From Limnochorda pilosa (GTDB lineage: Bacteria; Bacillota; Limnochordia; Limnochordales; Limnochordaceae), in NCBI RefSeq assembly GCF_001544015.1, contig NZ_AP014924.1, positions 2,480,001 to 2,544,000 on the forward strand: DNA of 64,000 nt, in the 5' to 3' direction. Position numbers and translations under genes: made by a program. The notes under the pieces are model-generated. The model did not search any database. It saw only the letters and a list, made by a program, of their open reading frames with translations, and had not been told where the DNA came from. Each line of letters starts with the position of its first letter. Position 1 is the stretch's first letter. This document shows, piece after piece, positions 27,305 through 39,742 of this stretch.

Positions 27305-27590
27305 CGCCCGAAGCCTTGACCTGCCTGATCGCGGGGGGCGAGAGCCTCGACGTGGAGTTCAAGGGTGAGGAGCAGGTACCCCTTTCCGACCGTGATCTGG
27401 CCGACCGCGGACTGCTCGACCACTCCGCGCAGGTCATCCCCGACGCACGCGGGCAGGACCTCGACCTTCTCGAGTTCAGCGACCGCGCCGCAGCATCCGC
27501 GAGCGGCGCGGTCGCAGCGACGACACCTTAGCCGGAACTGTCCGACTGGTCTTGTACAGTCGGAAGGCAAATCGCGGACCCCCGATCCCT

Positions 27591-27622
27591 CAACCATGGC
27601 CTTTTTCGGCCGCGAAGTGTGG
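27591..27622 (+). repeat. Left terminal inverted repeat of the IS element
   Basis: Starts CAACCATGGC and contains GGCCGCGAAG; imperfect match to the complement of 29411-29441. It also folds on itself (GGCC, TTTTTC, GGCC). Confidence 0.6.
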
Positions 27623-27667
27623 TCAAAACGCGAAATCGCGTGGGCACAACGCTAGCTCACGTAGCCA

Positions 27668-27697
27668 TTGACGAAAAAGCATAGGTTCTGGTATGAT
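27668..27697 (+). promoter_or_regulatory. Transposase promoter
   Basis: TTGACG (27668-27673) and TATGAT (27692-27697) with an 18-base spacer. The expected transcription start is near 27704 and the transposase ATG is at 27707 with no ribosome site, so the transcript may be leaderless, which would keep expression low. Confidence 0.6.
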
Positions 27698-27706
27698 GTG
27701 GGTACA

Positions 27707-29365
27707 ATGTACCTGCGCACTGTTCGTTCCAAAGGAACCGAGTACGTCCAGCTCGCCCATAACCGCCGGGTCGGGGGCCAGACCAGGTCCGAGATCCTCT
27801 ACAGCTTCGGCCGGAAGGACCAGCTGGACCTCGACGCGCTCAGACGGCTCGTGAAGAGCATCTCCCGCTTCCTGGAGCCCGAGGAGGTCGAAAAGATCCA
27901 GGAAGAGCTCGGCATGGACTGGCCCTTCGAATTCTTGGGGTCGCGGAAGCTTGGAGGCACCTGGCTGCTCGATGGGCTCTGGCGCGGGTTGAAGCTCGAC
28001 GAGGCCTTCAACCGGCTCCTTTCCCCGCGAGGCTACCGCACCCCCGTCGAGCGGCTCATCTTCGCCATGGTGGCCAACCGGGCCCTCGCGCCGGCAAGCA
28101 AGCTCGCCATGGAGCACTGGGTCGCCAACGAGGTCTGGATCGAGGGGTTGCCCGAGGTAGAGGTCCACCAGCTCTACCGGGCCATGGACTTCCTCCTGGA
28201 GGCCCACGACGAGATCCAGCGGGACGTCTTCTACGCCGTGGCCAACCTCCTCAACCTGGAGGTGGACCTCCTCTTCATCGACACCACCAGCACCTACTTC
28301 GAGATCGAGGGCGAGGACCCGGACGGGGACGAGGCCGACGGGTTCAGGAAGCGGGGCAGGAGCAAGGACGGCCAGCCCGGGCTTGCCCAGGTGGTGATCG
28401 GCTTCGCCGTCACCCGGGACGGGATCCCGGTCCGCTGCTGGGTCTGGCCCGGCAACACCTCCGACATGAACGTGGTGGAGGAGGTGAAGCGGGACCTCAA
28501 CGGTTGGAAGCTGGGCCGGGTGGTGGTGGTGATGGACACCGGCTTCAACTCCGACGAGAACCGGCGGATCCTCCAGGGAACGGGCGATGCGTACATCATC
28601 GGCGAGAAGATGCGCCTGGGCAAGGACGGGAAGCCCCATGAGGCGCTGAAGCGGGCCGGGACGTACAAGAAGCTCGAGAACGGCCTCGAGATCAAGGAGG
28701 TCGTCGTCCAGCCCGGAAGCGTCGCCCACCGCCGTTTCGTCGTGGTCTACAACCCTGAAGAGGCCGAGCGGGATCGGAAGAAGCGGGAGGACATCGTTGC
28801 CGAGGCCGAGCGGAGGCTGGCCGAGCTGGGGAACCTTGAAGGGAAAGAGCACACCAAGGCCGTCTGCGAGCTGCGGGCCCACGCCACCTACGGCCGCTAC
28901 CTCCGCCAGGCCAAGAACGGCGCCCTCGAGATCAACCGGGCGAAGATCCGCCAGGAGGAGAAGCTCGACGGGAAGTTCCTGGTGAGCACCTCGGACGATG
29001 GGCTCTCCACCGAGGACGTGGTCGCCGGGTACAAGCAGCTGTGGCAGATTGAGCGGGTGAACCGCCAGCTCAAGCACACCGTCGACATCCGCCCCGTCTA
29101 CCACCGCCTGGAGGACCGGATCCGCGCGCACGTGCTCCTTTGTTGGCTGGCTCTGCTGGTGATCCGCGTGGCCGAGAACGAGACCCAGTGTACCTGGTAC
29201 GAGATGAAGCGCATCCTCTCCACGCTGGAGCTTGGTATTCACCAGACCCGTCACGGCGAGCTCTGGACGAACCGGGTGACCGAGGAGCAGAAGGCGCTCT
29301 TCCAGGCCCTCCACATCAAGCCTCCGGCCCGATACCTGGCCATTCCCACGCCGAGAAGCGCATAG
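27707..29365 (+). CDS. IS1634-family transposase (DDE, IS4 superfamily)
   Basis: An intact 552-residue transposase. It opens MYLRTVRSKGTEYVQLAHNR, the standard IS1634 start, which is why ATG 27707 is preferred over an in-frame TTG inside the promoter. The first acidic residue lies in LLFIDTTSTYFEIEG, the second in GRVVVVMDTGFNSDENRRIL, and the glutamate block in YKQLWQIERVNRQLKHT (Y-x2-R-W/Q-x-IE type). Frame, length and codon quality suggest it is still functional. Confidence 0.93.
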   Translation: MYLRTVRSKGTEYVQLAHNRRVGGQTRSEILYSFGRKDQLDLDALRRLVKSISRFLEPEEVEKIQEELGMDWPFEFLGSRKLGGTWLLDGLWRGLKLDEAFNRLLSPRGYRTPVERLIFAMVANRALAPASKLAMEHWVANEVWIEGLPEVEVHQLYRAMDFLLEAHDEIQRDVFYAVANLLNLEVDLLFIDTTSTYFEIEGEDPDGDEADGFRKRGRSKDGQPGLAQVVIGFAVTRDGIPVRCWVWPGNTSDMNVVEEVKRDLNGWKLGRVVVVMDTGFNSDENRRILQGTGDAYIIGEKMRLGKDGKPHEALKRAGTYKKLENGLEIKEVVVQPGSVAHRRFVVVYNPEEAERDRKKREDIVAEAERRLAELGNLEGKEHTKAVCELRAHATYGRYLRQAKNGALEINRAKIRQEEKLDGKFLVSTSDDGLSTEDVVAGYKQLWQIERVNRQLKHTVDIRPVYHRLEDRIRAHVLLCWLALLVIRVAENETQCTWYEMKRILSTLELGIHQTRHGELWTNRVTEEQKALFQALHIKPPARYLAIPTPRSA

Positions 29366-29410
29366 GACGCGTGGTCACAACCGCTCTCCGGCCGCTGCAG
29401 GGCTTAAACA

Positions 29411-29441
29411 CCTTCGCGGCGGCCTTTTTCCGCCATGGTTG
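29411..29441 (-). repeat. Right terminal inverted repeat of the IS element
   Basis: On the minus strand it starts CAACCATGGC and contains GGCCGCCGCGAAGG, matching the left end with a small gap. It includes a GGCGG / CCGCC hairpin over a T run that could end transposase transcription. Confidence 0.6.
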
Positions 29442-29689
29442 TGTGTTTGTACTGTACAACGCCAGCCCGACTTGGATCTGGCGAAAGCACTGGGCGCCGT
29501 CGAAGCTAACGGTGAGGTTACCGCCGTACGGGTGATGGGGCTTCTGTTGTTCGGAAAGGAGGAGGCGCTGCGCCGCCTGCTGCCTGCGCACGAAGTGGCG
29601 TTCCAGGGCGTCGTGCTGGTGCTTCCTGGCGGTGCGGCCAACCTTGGACGAGCTGCTCGTTCTCAACCGTCTATGGCAAGAACGCGCTC

Positions 29690-29821
29690 TCACGCTTCCT
29701 GGCACTCGTCGTTCAGGCACGCGTTGAACCTGGGAAGACCGCACCGCTTGCAGTACTGATCGTCTTCGTTGAAGTCGCTGAAGCCACATCGAGCACACCG
29801 GTCAAACAGGGCGTCTCCCAT
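29690..29821 (-). CDS. Small double-CxxC zinc-ribbon protein, 43 residues
   Basis: Starts MGDALFDRCARCGFSDFNED, then QYCKRCGLPRF, so two CxxC knuckles spaced 11 residues apart; two further cysteines follow (NACLNDECQEA). This is a minimal rubredoxin-like zinc ribbon. The ATG at 29821 lies inside the end of the preceding HEPN-type gene (20-base overlap, same strand) with GGAGG nine bases upstream, strong evidence of a real third gene in the operon. Such ribbons bind nucleic acid or protein. It would be easily missed by length cut-offs. Confidence 0.75.
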   Translation of the reverse strand: MGDALFDRCARCGFSDFNEDDQYCKRCGLPRFNACLNDECQEA

Positions 29822-31187
29822 GCCGGGGACCCTCCGATCCTGTGTGAGTGCTTTTGAGACCAAGCTGGTAACTCCACCCGCCTAGCCCTACTCCCCCATT
29901 TCGTCGGAGCCGCCAGAACTCCTCGCAGACGTCGCGGAACTCAGGCCATTCTACGGGACTGTAGTGCGCCAGGGTGTTTCGTACGCGCCGCATCCGGTCT
30001 ACAGCCTGTCGAAGCTGGCGGAGCCACGGTACCGTCCGGAAGCGGTCAAGGAACTCCACTATATCACCGAACTCGACTGCGCCGCAGTCTTCGTTGGGTG
30101 GCTCTCTGGCCACCTCAGCATCCCTTGTTCGGGCAAACTCCGCCCACTCGGTGAAGCGCTGGCCGAGAATATGACAGACCTCGAGGCGGTAGCGGTCCAG
30201 CATGGGGAGCAAGATCGCGGCCTGACCCCGCCAAACCCGGTGGTTGAGGTCCGCCGTTCGACCCAACAGGGCCAGAGCGGCCGAATGGACAACGGGTCCT
30301 TCGTCGTGATCCCAGGTCAAGAGCCCGGTGCTCCATAGCAGCCGTTCAGCAGAAGAAGACGGAGACTCGGGCAAGTGTTCAGCCCTCGCCGTGTGTGCAA
30401 GTGCCTCCTCGCGGGCCGAGGAACCTTGCGTCGCGTCGAGCACGGGAGAGAAGGCCCGAGCCTCCGCGTACTCGCGTACCACCCGAAGCTGGTCCCGGAT
30501 GGACGAATCAATGTCAGCCTTCTCCATCATCCACGCCAGGCATTCGAGATCTGATCCTGCGAGATTCGACCATACCGCCTCACCCCACAAAGCCTTCGCG
30601 CCCGAGATCCCATGGTCTTCGAAGAGGGCGGCAGCCACGACGCGTGTTTCTCGAGAGGTAACCCAGCCCCGGTACCACGCCTTCGCGAGAAAAGCATCCT
30701 CAGCCATCTCATCCAGCGCCGCGATGGCTGCCGCGTCGCGTACCGGGATGAGAAGCGCCTTACGCTCGGCAGGCATGATGTCCGGCCGCTTGCTGTACCC
30801 TACCCACTCCGAAATGAAACGCTTCCACTGACCCAGCGCTCCGTCCGAAGCATTCTCCAGGTCGCGCAGAATGAGGATCTCCGGAACCGTGTCGGCTTCG
30901 TAAAGCGATGCAACAGCATTCCCTGATGGAGGGGTGGCGTCCAGATGATATCGGCTAGCAAGCCACTCGATAGGCCATTCCGTGTCAAGCGGTACGTGGC
31001 TCGTCTCCAGAGTTGCCCGGCCTCTGCACGTTTCTTCAAGGGCGGAAAGCAGCGACTCTATGGGGGCAGGCGCGGGCAGAAACCAGAGCACGCTGCGACC
31101 CCTGCAGAGATCGTCGGCCAATACCTGAAGGCGGCGCTGGGGCCTCGGGAGCCTCAGCGCTTCCACGGGCAAGGTCCAGGGGGTCAC
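29802..31187 (-). CDS. Unknown protein with C-terminal HEPN-like motif, partner of the giant ATPase
   Basis: About 461 residues from the GTG at 31187, which overlaps the stop of the giant ATPase gene (GTGA); an upstream ATG at 31256 is possible but overlaps by 73 bases. Residues 1-200 look like a degenerate nucleotide-binding fold: RSVLWFLPAPAPIESLL sits where a P-loop would be but lacks G-K-T, and EILILRDLENAS resembles a Walker B strand. The C-terminal helical region ends MRRVRNTLAHYSPVEW, in which Arg403-x4-His408 fits the R-x4-6-H signature of HEPN ribonucleases. I do not recognise the whole protein. Context: second gene of a three-gene operon with STAND ATPase and zinc ribbon, beside an IS and TA debris. 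Confidence 0.7.
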   Translation of the reverse strand: MTPWTLPVEALRLPRPQRRLQVLADDLCRGRSVLWFLPAPAPIESLLSALEETCRGRATLETSHVPLDTEWPIEWLASRYHLDATPPSGNAVASLYEADTVPEILILRDLENASDGALGQWKRFISEWVGYSKRPDIMPAERKALLIPVRDAAAIAALDEMAEDAFLAKAWYRGWVTSRETRVVAAALFEDHGISGAKALWGEAVWSNLAGSDLECLAWMMEKADIDSSIRDQLRVVREYAEARAFSPVLDATQGSSAREEALAHTARAEHLPESPSSSAERLLWSTGLLTWDHDEGPVVHSAALALLGRTADLNHRVWRGQAAILLPMLDRYRLEVCHILGQRFTEWAEFARTRDAEVAREPPNEDCGAVEFGDIVEFLDRFRTVPWLRQLRQAVDRMRRVRNTLAHYSPVEWPEFRDVCEEFWRLRRNGGVGLGGWSYQLGLKSTHTGSEGPRHGRRPV

Positions 31188-34100
31188 GAAGGGACCTTCT
31201 TCCCCAGTACGAACCGTGCGGCCATAGGCTCCACTGACAAGCTTCCATCGCGCCATTCGAGCAAACCCATCCGGCGCAGCGAGTGCGCCAAGGCGGATAG
31301 CTCGCGACGCGCAAGACGCTTCAGGGCAGCGTCGTCCGACAACTCCGCTGCTTCCCAGAGATCTTCATCGGCCACGTCCCCAAGAGCGTCCACGAGCTGC
31401 AGAAGGGCCTGTCCATTCGGTACATCCTGAAGGCCAAGCGCCTCGATGAATGCGGTCGCTGTACCCCCGAGGTTCTGCTGGAGAGTCTCGTCGACGTCCT
31501 GAATGATACTCACCAGCGTTCTCGACTTTCGGGTCTTTGCACGTTGGGCGTGATCCAACAGTTGATCCAGTAGCCAAGGCCATCCCCCAGTTGTGGCCAT
31601 GACGCGCGAGGTGATCTGGTCGGTTGCTGTGAGATCCAGATCAGCCAGAGTCGCCTTGACGACCGGGTGGGTCCAGCGCCGAAGCGTGACCGACGTTCCT
31701 GGAACCCTCGGCACCCCCTCTTCCTCCGCACCATCTTCAAGCATCCACTGTAGAATCTGGCGGGGCCGAAGGAGCACCACCAATCGGCCCACCGTCTGAG
31801 ATGCGCCAGAACCCATCCGATGCTCCAGCCAGTCTTGCATGTCTTTCAGGGATCGCTGGAGCGAACCGCTCAGAAACGCCGGGTGCGAGCCATATGCTAC
31901 GACGGTCAAACGCCCGGATTTCAGCTTCCGGCGTTCGGACTCCAGGAAAGCGCGCAGCTGCCCTAGATCTGTGCAGTCGTCGGGCAAGGTTCTCACCCAT
32001 TCGCGCGTGTCGGTAGCGTCAGCCATCGTGGTCGCAGCCGCCAGCACGTCCTGAACCCTACCGATGCTCAGGGCGTCGCTTCCGAAAACAACGCCAACCC
32101 CACACGGGCCGCCCAAGAGGTCACTGGCCTGACCGATCGTGAGCGGCCCGAACGCCTTCCTGCGCCCAAGATCGAATCCAAACACCTGCTGGCGGTAATC
32201 AGGCTCGCCCGGAGCAGACCGGCGCGAAATGGAGTCTAGTTGCTCCCGTATCCACTCAATGGACCCGAGTCCCCGCACAACGTTCCCATTGCGCAGGCGG
32301 TAGTGGCCAGACGGCATGCGGATGAGAACGCCCAGGCCCCGGAGCTCTTCGAGATACGACCTGAACTCATCGTCAGGTTCCTTACTAAAGCCATTCGGCC
32401 AGCGCTCGTGGGCCAACTGCCAGAGCTCCGCCGGGGTGAACTCTCGACGATAGCCGTCTTGGTCGTTCTTCTGAGCCAGAATCATCGCGTAGACTAGCGC
32501 CCTGTATCTGTCGTCCAGGTCGAGGGTCCACTCGAACCGCTGAACCAGGAGGGCTCGCAGGGCTGGGCGAAGATAGAGCGTTTCTACGTCCTTCATCGTG
32601 ACGGTGAACGGTGGGTCGTCAGTGCGTTGGCGGACTAGATGCACCAGTTCCTTGCAGAAGAGCTGAATGAGCGCCGGGTGGTAGTTGGTATACGACAGGA
32701 TCCGAAGGACGACATCGCGCGATTCGAATTCAAAGCCCAGCGCGTGCAGAGGCTCTTGAACCAGAGCCATGGCGGCTCTGGGTTCCAGCGGGCCAACGAC
32801 CACTGGAGGGCCAAGATGAGCGAAAGGCTGGTTGCTCAATCTCTCAAAACGCTGCACGCTGTGGAGGCCGGAGAATACCACGCGAAATCGGCCCCCCGAC
32901 TGATCTCTGATCCGCTTCAGCCGGTGGACCTGCGTGAAGTCGCTTCTCTGATCCGCGTCCAGGAAGTAGTCCGATTCGTCGAAGAGGAAGGTGACGCGCA
33001 GGTCTCCGTCACCGGCGAACAGGTCAAGAATCCGGTCTACCAAGCGCTCCGGATCGTGGCTCGTCCGCTCGTCGACAAGCCGCGAAGCGGTCAGTGCGCG
33101 CCGCACTCGCACCCAAACCTGCTCAGCCGTAGCCTGCCTTCCAATCTGCCTTATGTCTTCATAGAATGCATACCACCTGCGATCGGGACGGTGGAGTTCG
33201 CGTTGCATGACTGAGAGCAGCACCGATTTCCCGAACTGCCGGCCACCGTAGATGAAGGTACTTCCCCGGGGCTGCAGGAGTTCTGCAAGCTCCCTGCGGC
33301 GACCCTTGAACATCTCTTGAGGTACCGCGCCTTGCGGTTCGTACGGGTTCGCATGACCCCAGGCAATACCACAACTCACGGCAGTATGCAGGTGAAGCCC
33401 GCGTCGGGTGGCAAGGAAGTAGAGGAGTAGCTCGTCCACCAAGAGCGCGGTGAGGCCCGCGACCCGGCAGCGGTAGCTCCACTCCTGGCGCTGCAGAAGG
33501 CTCAGCCTTCCCATGTAGAGGACGATGGGGTGGCTTCGAGCGACTCCGTATGCATCCAGAATCTGGGACACCGCATCGTGCCCGGGCTGCCCAAAGACCA
33601 TCACGACGTCATACGTTCCGCCGCGCTGTGACCCGAATTCTGGTAGAGGACAGTCTGGGCCGGCCGCCATTCTGACCTTCAGCAGCGCCCTATCTGCGTC
33701 ACGTCTTACGATCTGGGGCTTGGGGATCGCGAATCCAATGTGGTCCAGGACCTTCGCAACCTGGGGGAGCAACTCTGTCCGAACCTGGCGGGCCTTTTTC
33801 AACTCCAGGTAGGCAGCCAGGGACTCCGCCGATTTCTGAGCTTCCTTACCTGGAACAGCCTTCATGCTCAGCCCCGCGAATTCCTCTCTCTGGGCGATCG
33901 CATCGATCGCATGCAGCCTGCGTCCCCATCCCGCGGACTGCTCATCTGAGAGCTGGTTGAGTAGCTGCGGGATAGCGCGCTTGAATTGCTCTACGGGTCT
34001 TTCGTCTCTCTCATCTGCTTCGGCACCGTCAACGTGTTCCCATTGGGGATCCTCTCCCAGCCTGATCACTTGCTCCGCGTGGGTGAGATACTCGTCAGCA

Positions 34101-37100
34101 AGCGGAAGGTCACCGGCCGCGGCGAGCCTCCCCGCCTCCTGAAGGTACCTCCTGGCCGTCGCTACGGTCGGTGCAGCCGTCTCGGCCTCAGTGAGATCCC
34201 GAAGCAGCTCGCCGATGTGCTTTCCCAGGGATGAGCGACGCTTCTCACGGTGTTGAGTGATCTCTTCGACAATGGAGTCCAGCTCCTGTAAGCGAACCCC
34301 TATCCGGTCGTCAGGCGCGTCCTCGATGCTCAAGAGCCGACCATCCACGTCGGCCCGGTCATGCTCGTCGAGCGCGTGGTCGATGGTTGCCTCCTCGAGA
34401 TTGCGGCGAACCGCAGCCGTTCTCTTCCTGAGCTCTTCATGCGCCAGGTTCCGGTGGTGCTCGAGCTCCTTGCGCAAGTTCGCTGCGCCTATCGCGTCAG
34501 CTTGCTCCAAGTGCTCGAGGATGAGCCGGGCCGGGAGGAAGTCCTTCCTCTCCAGGTGGAGGCGGAAGGCATCGGTCATACTTCGACCCTCGTCAAGCAC
34601 CTTCGTGACGTCTACCCATGCCATGGATGGATCTCCGGCGGCGAAGCGGCCCTCCACGGTAAGTGGAGGATCCTCGGCCAAGAGCGCCGGCAGCAGGAGC
34701 TCTCGCTCCCAGTCTTGATGACCGGCTAGAGTGAGCTGTGCCGATGCGGCAACCACAAAAGCCTTTATGCCCTTCTCGGCTAGTTCCGGAAGCCGAAGGG
34801 CCTCAGGGCGTGAATCGCCCCATTCACGGGCATCTGCGTCAGATTCAAGATCCGCGCCAAGACTTCCCCACGGAGGCCTCCATCCGAAACTCGCAGGGTC
34901 GTCGGTCGGTGTCTCATCACTCAGTGCCGCGCTCGCGTCCTCTGCAGCCTTGCGGAAGCGAGCAGCGGCCGACCGCGCGTCGGTGCCCCACTTTGATTGC
35001 TTCTCATGCTCGTATGACCACGCAAGCAGCAGGCTGCGCAACTGCGAGAGCTTGCTCACTACCTGATCCAGAGCGCGCGCCTGGAGGGGATTGGTCTTGG
35101 ACCCCTGGCGCGTGATGTCCTCGGATGTATCCCTGACCCAGCCCTTGATTGTCTCCTCGCTCGCCAGTGGCCCCTCGAAAAGGGAGCTTACTCGCTCACC
35201 GGCGTCCGGGCTCTCCCTCAGAAGGGCCTCCACGGCACTGCCCAGCTCCGAGTCCGATCGGGTGATGGCGCGTAGCACGAGGCTACCAAGTCGCGCAAGG
35301 AGCCGCCCCTGACGTGCCTTCTCCAACCACAAGCGGATGTTCTCGGCGACAAGTCCGGGATCCGCACTCTCCTCGGTCTCCGGACTCTGGAACGCTGCAC
35401 GGATCGCCTGAACAGGAAGACCGGCTCCGGCCACCTCGCGTACCGCAGCGGCGAGGGATCGCATGGGCTCATCCTCAGTGGGATGCAGGTTGGCTTGGGC
35501 ATCCTGCAACCAACCCCACGGACTTGTATCCGGAGCTTCGAGGGTCGGCTTCACAACGGTCAACAAGACCAGACGGGCACAAAGATGACTTGGCAAACCG
35601 GTAACGGCGGCAAGCTCGTGGGCAGGTGTTGGGTGCTCCCTGATGATGCGCTGGATTCGTTCGTGGGCCTCGAGGTCATCCCAACTGGCGCGCAGCCCGA
35701 GGTGGGCGGCCAGCACTGCCCAAGAAGGCAACACGGCCCCCCGCGTTGCCCCGGCGTTACCCTTTGGTTCCTGTTCCTTGTCGTTGCTCTGCGCGGCGTG
35801 TCGGCGCTCCCACTCGGTAGCAAGCCAATAGGCGCCAGCTGTATCGGCCGCGCCGAAAGCCCGCCAGAAGTAGGCCTGCAGAGCGGTCGATGACGCGGTG
35901 GGGTGATGGACGGATACGGTTTCTCCTTCCTTGACCGCCACCGGAATACCGTGATCGGCAGCGCGCGCCTGCTTTCCAACGTCATTCGAAGGGGTGAAGG
36001 GGGTTGCGGATGGTGCCGGCCCCGCCACGGCTCCCGCTCGAGCCTGCTCGGGCAGTGCGATTTCGTCTTGAGGAAGAGCGTCTTCCTTCGTGGTCCATGA
36101 AGCCTCTACTCCGGGCTGCTCTATGCTCTCCTCCCGCGGGACCGTGGGGGTATCGTTGCTTAACTCTGAACCTGGGCGTTCAGAGTCCACTCCCGAGACG
36201 GGTACTACCGCCGAATCCGACGCGCCGCTGTCGTCCAGGGCTTCAGCTGTCTGTACGGGGTGATCGGCCGGCTCGTCATCTGGTGCGACGTCCTCCGGCG
36301 GCGTCTCTGCGGGTACTCCGCCCTTCGGGGGGCCACCATCGTGCGGCGACAGCAGGCTTGAGACGTCGCCCACCAACTCGTTCAGCGTGGTGTTGAGCCG
36401 AGCAAGGCGCGCGGTGTCCTCGGGTGAGAACTTGGCGATCAGCCGAGCTCGAAGTTCCTTCGTCTGCCCAAGGTAGCTGGCAACTTCGTCGAGCAAGTCG
36501 ATGGCATTAGCAAGGTCTTCGCTGGATAGAGCGTAGTACAGTTCTCGCTCGAGCGGCAGGCGCCCCCCCAACCCATGGTACTCAAGCTCTTCGACGTACG
36601 ATCCCCACCGCGCTAGGACGTCGTCCAAGGCTCGGAGGCTTCCCTTTCGTTCCTCCTCCCTTTGTTTTCGCCGCTCGATGGCTTGTCTTAGCCCTTCGAC
36701 CGCCGTCTCCAACTCCGCGATACCGACGGGAGCATCTTGATCTACAAGCTCCTGCAGGCGCGAGAGCATCTGAACACCATGGGTAGGATCGTTCTCCATG
36801 TCGTCGCGTCGGTCGGAGTCAGGGGAAGCCTCCACCTCGTCACCCCTCTGGCTCACCAGATCGTACCCCAGCTTCTCCAGAAACTTGTCGCCGCTGGTCA
36901 CGAGAGCAAGTGCAACCGGCCGGACGCCGTGTGCTGCAACCAGTCCGTCCAGAAGTTCTCCAGCTTCTTGCGGGCTCTTTCCCTGAACCGCCTTGGCTGC
37001 TGCCTTGACCTTGTCGTCTTCGGCAAAGTGCGCCGAGATCCGGGCTGCCGGTCCGGAGTGATACCGTGTCCATACCTCCACCAGTTTACGGCGTCGCAGC

Positions 37101-37243
37101 TGAGGGCTTACCGAGCGGCCAGCCTTTTCCTTCAAGCCGGCAGAGTCCAAGGCCTCCCGGACCTCTGGATCGCTTGAGGTCTCCACGTACCACCGAGCAA
37201 ACTGCCCGAACGATTTCACGCGCATCTCAACCATCGCCCCCAC
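31184..37243 (-). CDS. Giant STAND-like P-loop ATPase, 2019 residues
   Basis: Not a protein I can name. Residues 1-300 are helical and charged; 300-440 are low-complexity, Pro/Glu/Asp-rich and probably disordered; 440-1200 are helical, perhaps scaffold repeats; 1205-1290 form an alpha/beta segment (TYDVVMVFGQPGHDAVSQIL). The ATPase core follows: FKGRRRELAELL leads into IYGGRQFGKSVLL (Walker A, 1331-1343), VTFLFDESDYFL (Walker B, 1417-1428), the sensor-like RFRVVFSGLHSVQRFERL, and a winged-helix region to about 1675. The rest contains a second Rossmann-like part without a P-loop. This AAA/STAND layout is typical of NTPases that sense a trigger and license an effector. GTG 37243, ATG 37234 and ATG 37225 are all possible starts. 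Confidence 0.8.
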   Translation of the reverse strand: MGAMVEMRVKSFGQFARWYVETSSDPEVREALDSAGLKEKAGRSVSPQLRRRKLVEVWTRYHSGPAARISAHFAEDDKVKAAAKAVQGKSPQEAGELLDGLVAAHGVRPVALALVTSGDKFLEKLGYDLVSQRGDEVEASPDSDRRDDMENDPTHGVQMLSRLQELVDQDAPVGIAELETAVEGLRQAIERRKQREEERKGSLRALDDVLARWGSYVEELEYHGLGGRLPLERELYYALSSEDLANAIDLLDEVASYLGQTKELRARLIAKFSPEDTARLARLNTTLNELVGDVSSLLSPHDGGPPKGGVPAETPPEDVAPDDEPADHPVQTAEALDDSGASDSAVVPVSGVDSERPGSELSNDTPTVPREESIEQPGVEASWTTKEDALPQDEIALPEQARAGAVAGPAPSATPFTPSNDVGKQARAADHGIPVAVKEGETVSVHHPTASSTALQAYFWRAFGAADTAGAYWLATEWERRHAAQSNDKEQEPKGNAGATRGAVLPSWAVLAAHLGLRASWDDLEAHERIQRIIREHPTPAHELAAVTGLPSHLCARLVLLTVVKPTLEAPDTSPWGWLQDAQANLHPTEDEPMRSLAAAVREVAGAGLPVQAIRAAFQSPETEESADPGLVAENIRLWLEKARQGRLLARLGSLVLRAITRSDSELGSAVEALLRESPDAGERVSSLFEGPLASEETIKGWVRDTSEDITRQGSKTNPLQARALDQVVSKLSQLRSLLLAWSYEHEKQSKWGTDARSAAARFRKAAEDASAALSDETPTDDPASFGWRPPWGSLGADLESDADAREWGDSRPEALRLPELAEKGIKAFVVAASAQLTLAGHQDWERELLLPALLAEDPPLTVEGRFAAGDPSMAWVDVTKVLDEGRSMTDAFRLHLERKDFLPARLILEHLEQADAIGAANLRKELEHHRNLAHEELRKRTAAVRRNLEEATIDHALDEHDRADVDGRLLSIEDAPDDRIGVRLQELDSIVEEITQHREKRRSSLGKHIGELLRDLTEAETAAPTVATARRYLQEAGRLAAAGDLPLADEYLTHAEQVIRLGEDPQWEHVDGAEADERDERPVEQFKRAIPQLLNQLSDEQSAGWGRRLHAIDAIAQREEFAGLSMKAVPGKEAQKSAESLAAYLELKKARQVRTELLPQVAKVLDHIGFAIPKPQIVRRDADRALLKVRMAAGPDCPLPEFGSQRGGTYDVVMVFGQPGHDAVSQILDAYGVARSHPIVLYMGRLSLLQRQEWSYRCRVAGLTALLVDELLLYFLATRRGLHLHTAVSCGIAWGHANPYEPQGAVPQEMFKGRRRELAELLQPRGSTFIYGGRQFGKSVLLSVMQRELHRPDRRWYAFYEDIRQIGRQATAEQVWVRVRRALTASRLVDERTSHDPERLVDRILDLFAGDGDLRVTFLFDESDYFLDADQRSDFTQVHRLKRIRDQSGGRFRVVFSGLHSVQRFERLSNQPFAHLGPPVVVGPLEPRAAMALVQEPLHALGFEFESRDVVLRILSYTNYHPALIQLFCKELVHLVRQRTDDPPFTVTMKDVETLYLRPALRALLVQRFEWTLDLDDRYRALVYAMILAQKNDQDGYRREFTPAELWQLAHERWPNGFSKEPDDEFRSYLEELRGLGVLIRMPSGHYRLRNGNVVRGLGSIEWIREQLDSISRRSAPGEPDYRQQVFGFDLGRRKAFGPLTIGQASDLLGGPCGVGVVFGSDALSIGRVQDVLAAATTMADATDTREWVRTLPDDCTDLGQLRAFLESERRKLKSGRLTVVAYGSHPAFLSGSLQRSLKDMQDWLEHRMGSGASQTVGRLVVLLRPRQILQWMLEDGAEEEGVPRVPGTSVTLRRWTHPVVKATLADLDLTATDQITSRVMATTGGWPWLLDQLLDHAQRAKTRKSRTLVSIIQDVDETLQQNLGGTATAFIEALGLQDVPNGQALLQLVDALGDVADEDLWEAAELSDDAALKRLARRELSALAHSLRRMGLLEWRDGSLSVEPMAARFVLGKKVPS

Positions 37244-37940
37244 TACATGGATTGACCAGAACTATCGGATTTCCTTCACCGCCCACGCCACATCAGGGCA
37301 AGGTGCAGCGCAGGATCTCCTCGACGGATAGCGGGCCAAGCTCCTGTTACGGCTGCAAGCGTGCCACGCCCGCAAGCTGTGGGAGCGACAGCTGAGACGT
37401 ACTGGCAACAATCCAGTCGGCACAGTTGAGCGTGTGGGGGACCAATCGAATCAAGCCGAGCATCCGCCGCGGGCGACCCCGCACAGAAGCACGCCACGCT
37501 CCCCATCTACGAGCGCCGCGCGCCGGATTGCCCTCCCGAACTGAGGCGCCAGAACCGGGCTGCTCCGGGGCTGGGTGCTTGGTGAAACCCGTCTCTCAGA
37601 GCCTTCGACGGTGTAAGTTCCATCGCGAAGTCGCCGCTCACCGTCGCCGAATCAGCGTTACCACCCGTTGCCATCCGATCGTCCGATCGGCCACCGTAAG
37701 CGAAGCCGTTCCCACCCAACGGGGCGCCACCAGTTGGCCCCAGGTCTTGCGCGCCACCTGTGACGGCGACGATTGCACCTGAAAGGCCGCTGTACGAGTC
37801 TCGCCCCCGGGCTTACTCACTCCCCGTGACCTCCGGGGACCCCGGACTTCTCACGTCACGACTCTTCTCTGCGCCTTCAGCCTGCCCCCAGGGCTGTCGA
37901 TATGTGCAGTAGACACCTCACCGGGGGCACTGATGCTGAG
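37244..37940. other. Long gap between the ATPase operon and the sugar operon
   Basis: About 700 bases with no recognisable gene on either strand. Short open frames here have no ribosome sites or family resemblance. It must contain the two divergent promoters, but I could not identify clear boxes. Confidence 0.5.
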
Positions 37941-39044
37941 ATGAACAGTGCATACCTCGCCGGCAAGACCGTCCTCGTGACCGGCGGCACGGGCTCCATC
38001 GGTAGCGAAATCGTTCGCCAGGCACTCCAGGCTGGTGCGACGGCGGTACGGGTGTACTCGCGCGATGAGTACCGCCAGATGCTCCTGCAGGAGGAGTTGG
38101 GCAATGACCGCCGTTTACGGCTGCTGATCGGCGACGTCCGGGATCAGGAACGCTTGGCGTTTGCCATGAGCGGCGTCGACATCGTCTTCCACGCAGCGGC
38201 CATGAAACACGTCCCTGCCTGCGAGTACAACCCGTTCGAGGCGGTCAAGACGAACGTCCTGGGGATCCAGAATGTGATCGACTGCGCCATGCGGGCCAAC
38301 GCGGAGCGGATGGTCACCATCAGCACCGACAAGGTCGTCAGCCCCATGAACACCATGGGAGCTACGAAACTTCTGGGTGAGCGGTTAATGATGGCGGCCA
38401 ACCGATACAAAGGCAACAGGCGAACCGTCTTCAACTGTGTTCGATTCGGCAACGTCCTGGGGTCTCGGGGCTCGGTGGTCCCCCTCTTTCGACGGCAGAT
38501 CCGGAAGGGTGGCCCACTCACGGTCACCGATGCCCGGGCGACTCGCTTCTTCATGTCGATCCCTCAGGCCGTGGAGCTTGCCCTGAAAGCGGGCGGTCTG
38601 TCTCGGGGCGGCTACACCTTCGTGCTCAAGATGCCCGTGGTGCGCATATGGCAACTGGCCGAGGTCATGGCAGCAGAGTACGCTGGGCGGGGCTTACCCT
38701 TAGTCGATATAAGAGAAACGGGCTTGCGCCCGGGTGAGAAGCTGTTCGAGGAACTGATGACCTCTGATGAGGCCGCGCGAGCCTATGAATCCGACGACCT
38801 CTTCGCGGTCCCTTCGTTGCTTGAGCCGTTGCCCCCACCCACATTGGATGACGGTTGGATGCCCACCCAGGTGACCCGCTACTCCTCGGAGGATCTACCA
38901 CCGCTCGCCCCACCCGAGATCCGCCGCATGCTGGACAGTGCCCGTCAGTTGCCAGCCAGCCTGGTCGATCCCGGCGATAGTGACGACGACAGAGCTCTTG
39001 AGCTCGCGCCAAAAGTCGTTGTGAAGGTGGCCCAGCAAGCGTGA
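37941..39044 (+). CDS. UDP-N-acetylhexosamine 4,6-dehydratase (LegB/PseB/CapD type)
   Basis: An extended short-chain dehydrogenase of about 367 residues. The NAD(P) motif is TVLVTGGTGSIGSEIVRQ at residues 9-26; the active site reads STDKVVSPMNTMGATKLLGE with Thr-Asp-Lys and a Met where classic enzymes have the catalytic Tyr, as in WbpM/CapD-type dehydratases. It should make the 4-keto-6-deoxy sugar that starts nonulosonic acid synthesis. ATG 37941 is chosen over 37902 because the fold begins directly after it. First of six genes; its stop overlaps the next GTG. Confidence 0.85.
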   Translation: MNSAYLAGKTVLVTGGTGSIGSEIVRQALQAGATAVRVYSRDEYRQMLLQEELGNDRRLRLLIGDVRDQERLAFAMSGVDIVFHAAAMKHVPACEYNPFEAVKTNVLGIQNVIDCAMRANAERMVTISTDKVVSPMNTMGATKLLGERLMMAANRYKGNRRTVFNCVRFGNVLGSRGSVVPLFRRQIRKGGPLTVTDARATRFFMSIPQAVELALKAGGLSRGGYTFVLKMPVVRIWQLAEVMAAEYAGRGLPLVDIRETGLRPGEKLFEELMTSDEAARAYESDDLFAVPSLLEPLPPPTLDDGWMPTQVTRYSSEDLPPLAPPEIRRMLDSARQLPASLVDPGDSDDDRALELAPKVVVKVAQQA

Positions 39045-39742
39045 GCAAGGTCAGGACGCTTGGCTTGATACCGGCCCGGGCTGGCTCAAAAGGCATTCCG
39101 GGGAAGAACCTACGTCTCCTGGGCGGAGTACCCCTCATCGTTCGTACCATCGAGGTTGCGCTTGAAGCCCAGTTGGATCAAGTGGTGGTGTCGACCGACG
39201 GGCCCGATATCGCGGAGGTGTCCAAGCGAGCCGGCGCCCGCGTTCCATTCCTGCGTCCGGCCGAGCTTGCCACCGACGACGCCGCTACCGTTGATGTTGT
39301 CCGTCACGCCCTCATGTGGCTACGACAGCGCGAGGCGACCGAACCTGAGACGGTCGTTCTCCTCCAACCTACGTCGCCGCTCCGGACGGCAGAGCACATC
39401 CGTGAAGCGTTGGAGCTCTTCTCGCGTGGCCATGGACGCACAGTTGTGAGTGTCACCCCCACGGACCACCCTCCGCACTGGACGTACACGCTCAGCGCGG
39501 AAGGTACACTGCTACCCGTGGTGCCAGGGAACTGGGCCGCTCGCCGTCAGGATCTCCCGCCGACCTTCCGGCTCAACGGGGCCATCTACGTGTTTCCGGC
39601 CGCTAAGGCCGAAGGAGATCGGCTGTGGGACGAGCGTAGCCTAGCCTATGTCATGCCCCCCGAAGCATCCGTAGACATCGACACCGAGCTGGATTGGCAG
39701 CTGGCCGAGATCCTACTGCAGAGGGATGCCGTTAGGACCTGA
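39041..39742 (+). CDS. CMP-nonulosonic acid cytidylyltransferase (NeuA/LegF/PtmB-like)
   Basis: A 233-residue nucleotidyltransferase with the CMP-sialate synthetase opening LGLIPARAGSKGIPGKNLRL (residues 7-26), then LRPAELATDDAATVDVVRHA and VLLQPTSPLRTAEHIREALE. It activates the finished sugar acid with CTP for transfer to flagellin. The GTG start overlaps the dehydratase stop (GTGA). Confidence 0.9.
   Translation: MSKVRTLGLIPARAGSKGIPGKNLRLLGGVPLIVRTIEVALEAQLDQVVVSTDGPDIAEVSKRAGARVPFLRPAELATDDAATVDVVRHALMWLRQREATEPETVVLLQPTSPLRTAEHIREALELFSRGHGRTVVSVTPTDHPPHWTYTLSAEGTLLPVVPGNWAARRQDLPPTFRLNGAIYVFPAAKAEGDRLWDERSLAYVMPPEASVDIDTELDWQLAEILLQRDAVRT

Follow-up and report, generated by a model that had tools for sequence, protein, structure and literature searches.

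Our analysis of a 64,000-nucleotide (nt) stretch of the Limnochorda pilosa genome (contig NZ_AP014924.1, positions 2,480,001 to 2,544,000, hereafter the window, part of a single-contig genome of 3,817,036 bases) suggests, with a probability that we put at roughly 0.64, that the products of two overlapping genes together make up the STAND switch of a counter-invader module, in which a HEPN ribonuclease (RNase) would be licensed by the sensing of a giant ATPase. Gene 1 (31184-37243; coordinates are those of the window, and these genes and all of their parts lie on the (-) strand) begins with a GTG, has in-frame ATGs at codons 4 and 7, and encodes the STAND-like ATPase of 2019 amino acids (aa). 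Gene 2 (29802-31187) encodes a partner of 461 aa, predicted to consist of an AAA/STAND-like module that lacks a P-loop, followed by a HEPN-like domain. The genes are coupled by a GTGA stop/start overlap (31184-31187), the GTG start of gene 2 sitting within the stop of gene 1. The domain make-up of the two proteins, the absence of the P-loop from the partner, the pairing and co-inheritance of the genes and their patchy presence are all direct outcomes of the computation.

For comparison we drew on 551 confirmed ATPase loci, found by two short patterns in one species-level genome set. The 80 genome loci analysed are the best 80 of these 551 and are biased to near relatives, and the 92 loci counted below include doubly fetched contigs (L017/L024 and L018/L048), near-copies, remnants and contig-end fragments; open reading frame (ORF) calls were mechanical throughout. 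The product of gene 1 is, as judged from its motifs and predicted structure, a STAND-like ATPase. The Walker A (GGRQFGKS) and Walker B (FLFDESD) motifs that an earlier, sequence-only reading of this DNA had noted in a 2019-residue protein are indeed there, at aa 1333-1340 (33224-33247) and aa 1419-1425 (32969-32989) respectively, and with the NBD-HD-WHD arrangement seen in the model the full set of STAND ATPase features is present. GGRxxGK[ST] occurs at 90/92 ATPase loci, the 2 exceptions being remnants without that region; the Walker A lysine K1339 (column K178 of our 61-row alignment) is invariant, and D1422, E1423 and D1425 are each found in 61/61 rows. An AlphaFold2 (AF2) model of aa 1162-2019, built from the 61 aligned sequences, has a mean predicted local distance difference test score (pLDDT) of 91.0. 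Its STAND/Orc-type nucleotide-binding core (aa ~1299-1671, 32231-33349; model residues 138-510) matched 2qen with a VIA Z of 20.5, the NRC4 resistosome with 17.6, RPP1 with 17.0 and CED-4 with 16.8, and the fold also lies near Orc and TnsC in a structural search made mainly with model residues 125-512. R1465, present in 59/61 rows, is by its position a candidate arginine finger.

Outside the core, the model secondary structure shows a conserved alpha/beta domain directly before it (aa ~1162-1290, 33374-33760), with G1204 and D1270 in 61/61 rows and a helix-strand-strand-strand-helix-strand order that gives the impression of PD-(D/E)XK nucleases. The region behind the core (aa ~1672-2019, 31187-32230) contains a TGGWP motif (T1885 in 55/61 rows, G1886 and W1888 each in 57/61), and from this motif and its strand/helix order is perhaps a second AAA/STAND-like module without a P-loop, whereas the first 1161 residues presumably hold the sensor. 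At the level of profiles the window ATPase gives no Pfam match over the cut-off (best AAA_22, with 23.3 bits against 27 needed), and nSTAND1, nSTAND5, nSTAND6 and iSTAND match few of its relatives, and weakly. A search of the PDB by sequence found no relative of either protein, profile searches giving a best E of 0.038. In the ATPase tree the nearest rows to the window protein are from Bacillota.

The partner was modelled from 53 aligned partners (AF2, mean pLDDT 88.9). Residues 1-309 (30261-31187) take an AAA/STAND-like fold without Walker A in the model, and this stretch aligns with 2qen at a moderate score (VIA Z 12.8, root mean square deviation 6.1, 270 residues aligned), with RFC and further AAA+ proteins as the top Foldseek matches (best E 7.2e-5). 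The first 120 aa of 57/58 partners lack a classical Walker A, and in the divergent stretch of aa 1-309 no arginine is conserved in at least 75% of the rows. The helical domain that follows in the model (aa 311-431, 29895-30257) is HEPN-like and holds the R403-NTLA-H408 motif (29964-29981), which the sequence-only reading had placed near the C-terminus of the second protein and which we locate accordingly within its 461 aa. The R-x4-6-H motif of HEPN (Swt1-like) is thus found within a C-terminal helical domain, and it is kept across phyla. All 53 partner rows, which had been preselected by an R...H pattern, have R334, R403 and H408. A profile ending short of the motif found 63 partners with a length of 300 aa or more, 58 of them picked earlier by the broader R...H pattern and 5 not; R[ND]x[LIVM][AS]H stands near the end of 60/63, although the partner alignment set and the profile used on the 92 loci were themselves built from R...H-picked partners. 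Among the 5 from outside that set, L093 and L099 have the motif and the other three are the exceptions: L025 is frameshifted with the motif in the next ORF, L058 has RRRVAH, and L012 has RNKVAH farther upstream, before the final 140 aa, since a kinase-like AAA_33 domain comes after it. Pfam HEPN_Swt1 matches 20/53 partners at E<=1 (best 1.8e-5), the window partner not being one of them. From these features the HEPN-like domain is probably RNA-cutting. The second protein had been described as HEPN-type; the HEPN-like domain stands, but it is no bare HEPN, since the P-loop-less module precedes it.

That the ATPase and the partner form one conserved two-gene unit is well supported by the comparison of loci and genomes. 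The partner profile matches at 67/92 ATPase loci; of the 25 loci without a partner, 14 have cyanobacterial titles, and at 8 the contig ends less than 700 nt past the ATPase stop, these two sets overlapping. When the search for starts began 40 nt upstream of the stop and the first usable one was taken, and the near-duplicates L024, L048 and L096 were dropped, the genes overlapped or lay at most 10 nt apart in 52/55 pairs, 24 of which had exactly the 4-nt overlap. Pairwise distances of the two proteins are correlated (Mantel r 0.857, n=53, with L024, L048, L096, L017 and L018 left out), none of 2000 permutations reaching as high a value, and the shared ancestry of the hosts contributes to this correlation. 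Moreover, among 100 genomes the ATPase (E<=1e-5) and the partner (E<=1e-6) occur in the same 6, including that of the window, and in none singly, so that at least in this sample the homologues are not scattered one by one, an outcome that the sequence-only reading had named as refuting it. Four of the six genomes hold full pairs and 2 hold remnants. The remnants (L019:1443-1949 in genome G020 and L020:2173-3684 in G001) are nearly identical, one of them in a host of the window's own genus; in both a short piece of the ATPase (aa ~1667-1749) continues in frame into the partner's C-terminal half, the one with HEPN, and what is left is a small HEPN frame. At L019 the gene immediately upstream of the remnant is that of an N4/N6 DNA methylase.

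The sequence-only reading had treated three overlapping genes as one unit. Their overlaps are real and genes 1 and 2 do behave as a unit, but the third gene falls outside it, because the window is the only one among 58 partner loci with a convincing Cys-rich ORF. This zinc-ribbon-like frame of 43 aa (29690-29821, overlapping gene 2 by 20 nt) has two CxxC pairs and one C-x4-C, with GGAGG 9 nt before its ATG, and reaches zinc ribbons in Pfam only below the cut-off (L37e at E 3.1e-4, DZR at 0.011). L014, L063 and L092 give low-grade frames only, and a search of the 100 genomes returned the window's own copy and one other weak match, 45% over 31 aa within a 358-aa frame. We therefore rejected the third gene as a conserved component and treat it as lineage-specific or accidental.

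The sequence-only reading had also not recognised the combination as a named system. This holds for PADLOC 2.0 and NCBIfam, in which neither protein has a credible match (in PADLOC the best E of the ATPase is 5.2 and the partner has none), but an operon of this kind was predicted in 2021. In that study (eLife, PMC8195603) a mobile two-gene nSTAND2 operon is predicted in which both proteins contain STAND modules and a conserved arginine finger, one of the two being eroded in its NTP-binding motifs and fused, most commonly, to GT4 or HEPN. The window pair is likewise a two-gene operon with a STAND-like module in both proteins (the partner fold at moderate score), and likewise the NTP-binding motif is missing from the protein that bears the HEPN. 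In contrast, our arginine candidate is in the ATPase (R1465), with none reaching 75% in aa 1-309 of the partner, and no GT4 was seen among the few partner-position proteins scanned. No model named nSTAND2 appeared among Pfam matches at E<=0.1, and Pfam may hold none by that name. The pair thus closely matches the nSTAND2-type operon kind of PMC8195603; we do not file it there outright because the arginine finger of the partner was not recovered and no GT4 was seen. The literature searched contained no test of such a unit.

The proteins of AVAST (Avs) are also large STAND ATPases, and Avs5 and Avs3 entries are among our structural matches. Avs proteins are known to carry their effector within the ATPase protein itself, whereas the effector of the window system would be on a second protein.

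A different placement again is seen in the DUF499-HEPN ATPases of BREX-related and Hma systems, where according to PMC3710099 and PMC12839542 the ATPase carries HEPN as an N-terminal fusion. The likeness extends to an Orc/STAND-type ATPase, a HEPN of the Swt1/Abi2 families, a methylase and an SNF2 helicase; in the window, however, HEPN forms the C-terminal part of a second protein that lacks a P-loop, and at E<=10 neither Pfam nor PADLOC, libraries which may lack a model so named, matches the ATPase to DUF499 or Hma. One alternative is that the pair belongs to a restriction-type DNA machine, in which the ATPase, like BrxC/DUF499/HmaC, would be a scaffold that scans DNA, and HEPN no more than a back-up suicide effector. 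Besides the nearness of the fold to Orc and TnsC, several loci speak for it. In Thermoflexales (L034) the gene order is DUF1156 methylase, ATPase, HEPN and SNF2-PLD helicase, the PLD match being below the cut-off; a Type ISP methylase lies upstream in L036, and in L086 an Eco57I-type methylase is accompanied by an opposite-strand helicase. In 10 partner-less cyanobacterial loci (L010, L064, L065, L070-L073, L075, L081 and L084) the ATPase has next to it, instead of HEPN, a helicase that belongs to a single cluster, that of L070, the one examined alone, being SNF2 plus PLD. Yet this cluster adjoins or lies near the ATPase, in some cases several kb away, in only 16/92 loci, while the partner usually found is HEPN, and neighbour clustering recognised no recurring methylase family. 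The cyanobacterial loci L059 and L074, next to the helicase subclade, retain HEPN, which makes it likely that a helicase replaced HEPN within that lineage; L097, within the subclade, has neither. On balance we consider a DNA machine unlikely, and favour the STAND switch with an RNase effector.

Further variants come from Alphaproteobacteria. In the Bradyrhizobium elkanii plasmid of L012 a single protein (L012:4070-13408) carries the pPIWI-RE X, MID and RNaseH (E 1.9e-22) domains and then the ATPase core, with a pPIWI_RE_Z gene upstream of the fusion and the partner downstream (E 1.3e-33). In an Azospirillum plasmid (L110:2068-11844) the pPIWI-RE RNaseH domain is split over two adjacent genes, with the ATPase in the second; the partner follows, and the R...H motif was not seen in it. 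Both partners (L012:13412-15061 and L110:11841-13514) have the P-loop kinase-like AAA_33 domain C-terminal to HEPN, and the partner of an Agrobacterium plasmid (L112:10382-11971) shows a weak C-terminal AAA_33 match, below the cut-off. Compared with the three-gene pPIWI-RE restriction system (PMC3702460), the ATPase core of the alphaproteobacterial relatives thus lies within, or is split with, pPIWI-RE, whereas at the window locus we saw no pPIWI-RE. That 2013 text contains no word starting with HEPN or ATPase, and our literature search, which left most subscription papers and bioRxiv preprints outside its scope, found no paper on PIWI-RE or pPIWI together with HEPN. In a single case, Spongiactinospora, a gene like beta-CASP metallo-beta-lactamase RNases (L094:12565-14601) overlaps the ATPase stop, in the place normally taken by the HEPN partner; neither it nor the 895-aa partner-position gene of L015 has a convincing partner module. 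Considering these arrangements, we tentatively raise the possibility, which we hold to be less probable than not, that the pair is a swappable alarm for diverse sensors, working alone widely, wired to pPIWI-RE in Alphaproteobacteria and re-armed with SNF2-PLD or beta-CASP elsewhere. In Alphaproteobacteria, recognition of invader nucleic acid by PIWI would trigger a STAND-driven RNase shutdown, with the extra AAA_33 behind HEPN.

The plasmids also bear on a toxin-antitoxin-like unit, in which the ATPase would restrain a HEPN toxin and the main role would be the maintenance of plasmids or islands. Relatives of the ATPase are on 27 plasmid records, with an RNaseH name on 6/20 among those listed and two of them examined, their presence is patchy, and HEPN toxins in toxin-antitoxin-like pairs are known (PMC3710099). 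Such a unit seems to us highly improbable, since an ATPase of ~2000 aa with invariant ATP-binding motifs would be a costly simple antitoxin and the partner bears an AAA/STAND-like module of its own. A single-sequence tblastn of the partner against plasmids gave no match; as the profile search does find the partner there, we take this miss to reflect low sensitivity.

Several observations weigh against a counter-invader STAND switch, and we set them out together. The window partner, whole or as aa 300-435, has no HEPN Pfam match at E<=10, and this, with a HEPN_Swt1 count obtained only at E<=1, lowers our confidence in the explanation that we prefer. A profile comparison of the partner with the C-terminal half of the ATPase gave no similarity (probability 0.3%), so that the notion of a dead sister subunit and of common descent leans on the fold and its moderate scores; a recent origin of the partner by duplication of the ATPase is for the same reason unsupported. 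The missing PADLOC and NCBIfam matches count on this side too. In a neighbour survey of 87 proteins, selected out of 396 over 54 loci with no more than 3 from any one locus, there were 10-12 helicases and single BrxL, BrxC/D and Type ISP matches, the rest shown being mixed and many of them housekeeping, and about 10/87 matched PADLOC helicase models such as DpdE, DrmD and HKD+Snf2, among the best 25 of 157 families. As for clustering with defence genes, another check proposed by the sequence-only reading, the helicase matches speak for a conflict role, but most locus flanks do not look like clear defence islands. N4/N6-methylases are present in 38/43 host genomes regardless of the locus, and among the methylase matches listed none is inside the locus in the single-contig genomes L041, L043 and L051. 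Phyla cluster in the ATPase tree (22 changes against a shuffled mean of 40.3 and a least possible 14), which means that much of the inheritance may be vertical and that transfer is not proved. No relative was found in phage records or in one viral_contigs scan, both single-sequence searches, and in the window the flanks scanned hold an IS1634 transposase and two fragments as well as two polysaccharide genes.

A further alternative is a host complex for RNA surveillance or stress response, in which HEPN would bind or process cellular RNA as in eukaryotic Swt1. The closest Pfam family is the Swt1-like HEPN, no phage-borne copies were found and phyla cluster in the tree; against this, only 6/100 genomes hold the pair, with decay in 2, and a tie to pPIWI-RE proteins exists in Alphaproteobacteria. 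We regard such a host role as quite improbable, and the case for a conflict role is built on the patchy presence, the logic of the domains and the variants with fusions or extensions.

We can at present only propose how a counter-invader STAND switch would operate, and from the features described we infer hetero-assembly, RNase activity, a trigger and an anti-invader role. The long flanking regions of the ATPase may respond to a signature of the invader, which could be a nucleic-acid structure, and binding together with ATP exchange in the NBD-HD-WHD core would drive assembly with the partner, whose P-loop-less module might be a docking or sensing subunit. Assembly would unite HEPN domains, two of which may form an R-x4-H active site that cuts RNA and so halts the invader or the infected cell; the 43-aa ORF would be unnecessary. 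The pairing of a STAND or AAA sensor with a HEPN RNase, as the sequence-only reading had it, is thus well supported in its architecture by anatomy and comparative genomics.

An insertion sequence had been noted beside the operon and we identify it as an IS1634-family element (27544-29471, its transposase assigned to IS1634), which has 2 more long copies (96% and 86%) and 3 shorter pieces elsewhere in the genome. A neighbour had also been labelled a broken AlbA_2 gene; this label could not be confirmed, as neither of the two fragments flanking the operon has a Pfam match at E<=1e-3. Upstream of the operon, on the opposite strand, are polysaccharide biosynthesis and cytidylyltransferase genes (37902-39742). 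Rfam and tRNA scans of the window gave no matches, and counts of promoters and terminators were not above those of shuffled sequence.

The anatomy suggested by the models is that of an NLR-style switch whose effector is on a second subunit without the usual ATP-binding motif, and if the proposal is true this would be an NLR-like switch with an effector on a second, ATP-blind subunit. If the pair is an immune module, it would be a common one, with 551 confirmed loci, and yet one without a credible match in PADLOC 2.0 or NCBIfam. The fusion to pPIWI-RE would provide a testable link from a PIWI protein to an RNase alarm, and with the ATP-binding and catalytic residues now named, direct tests of the system are possible.

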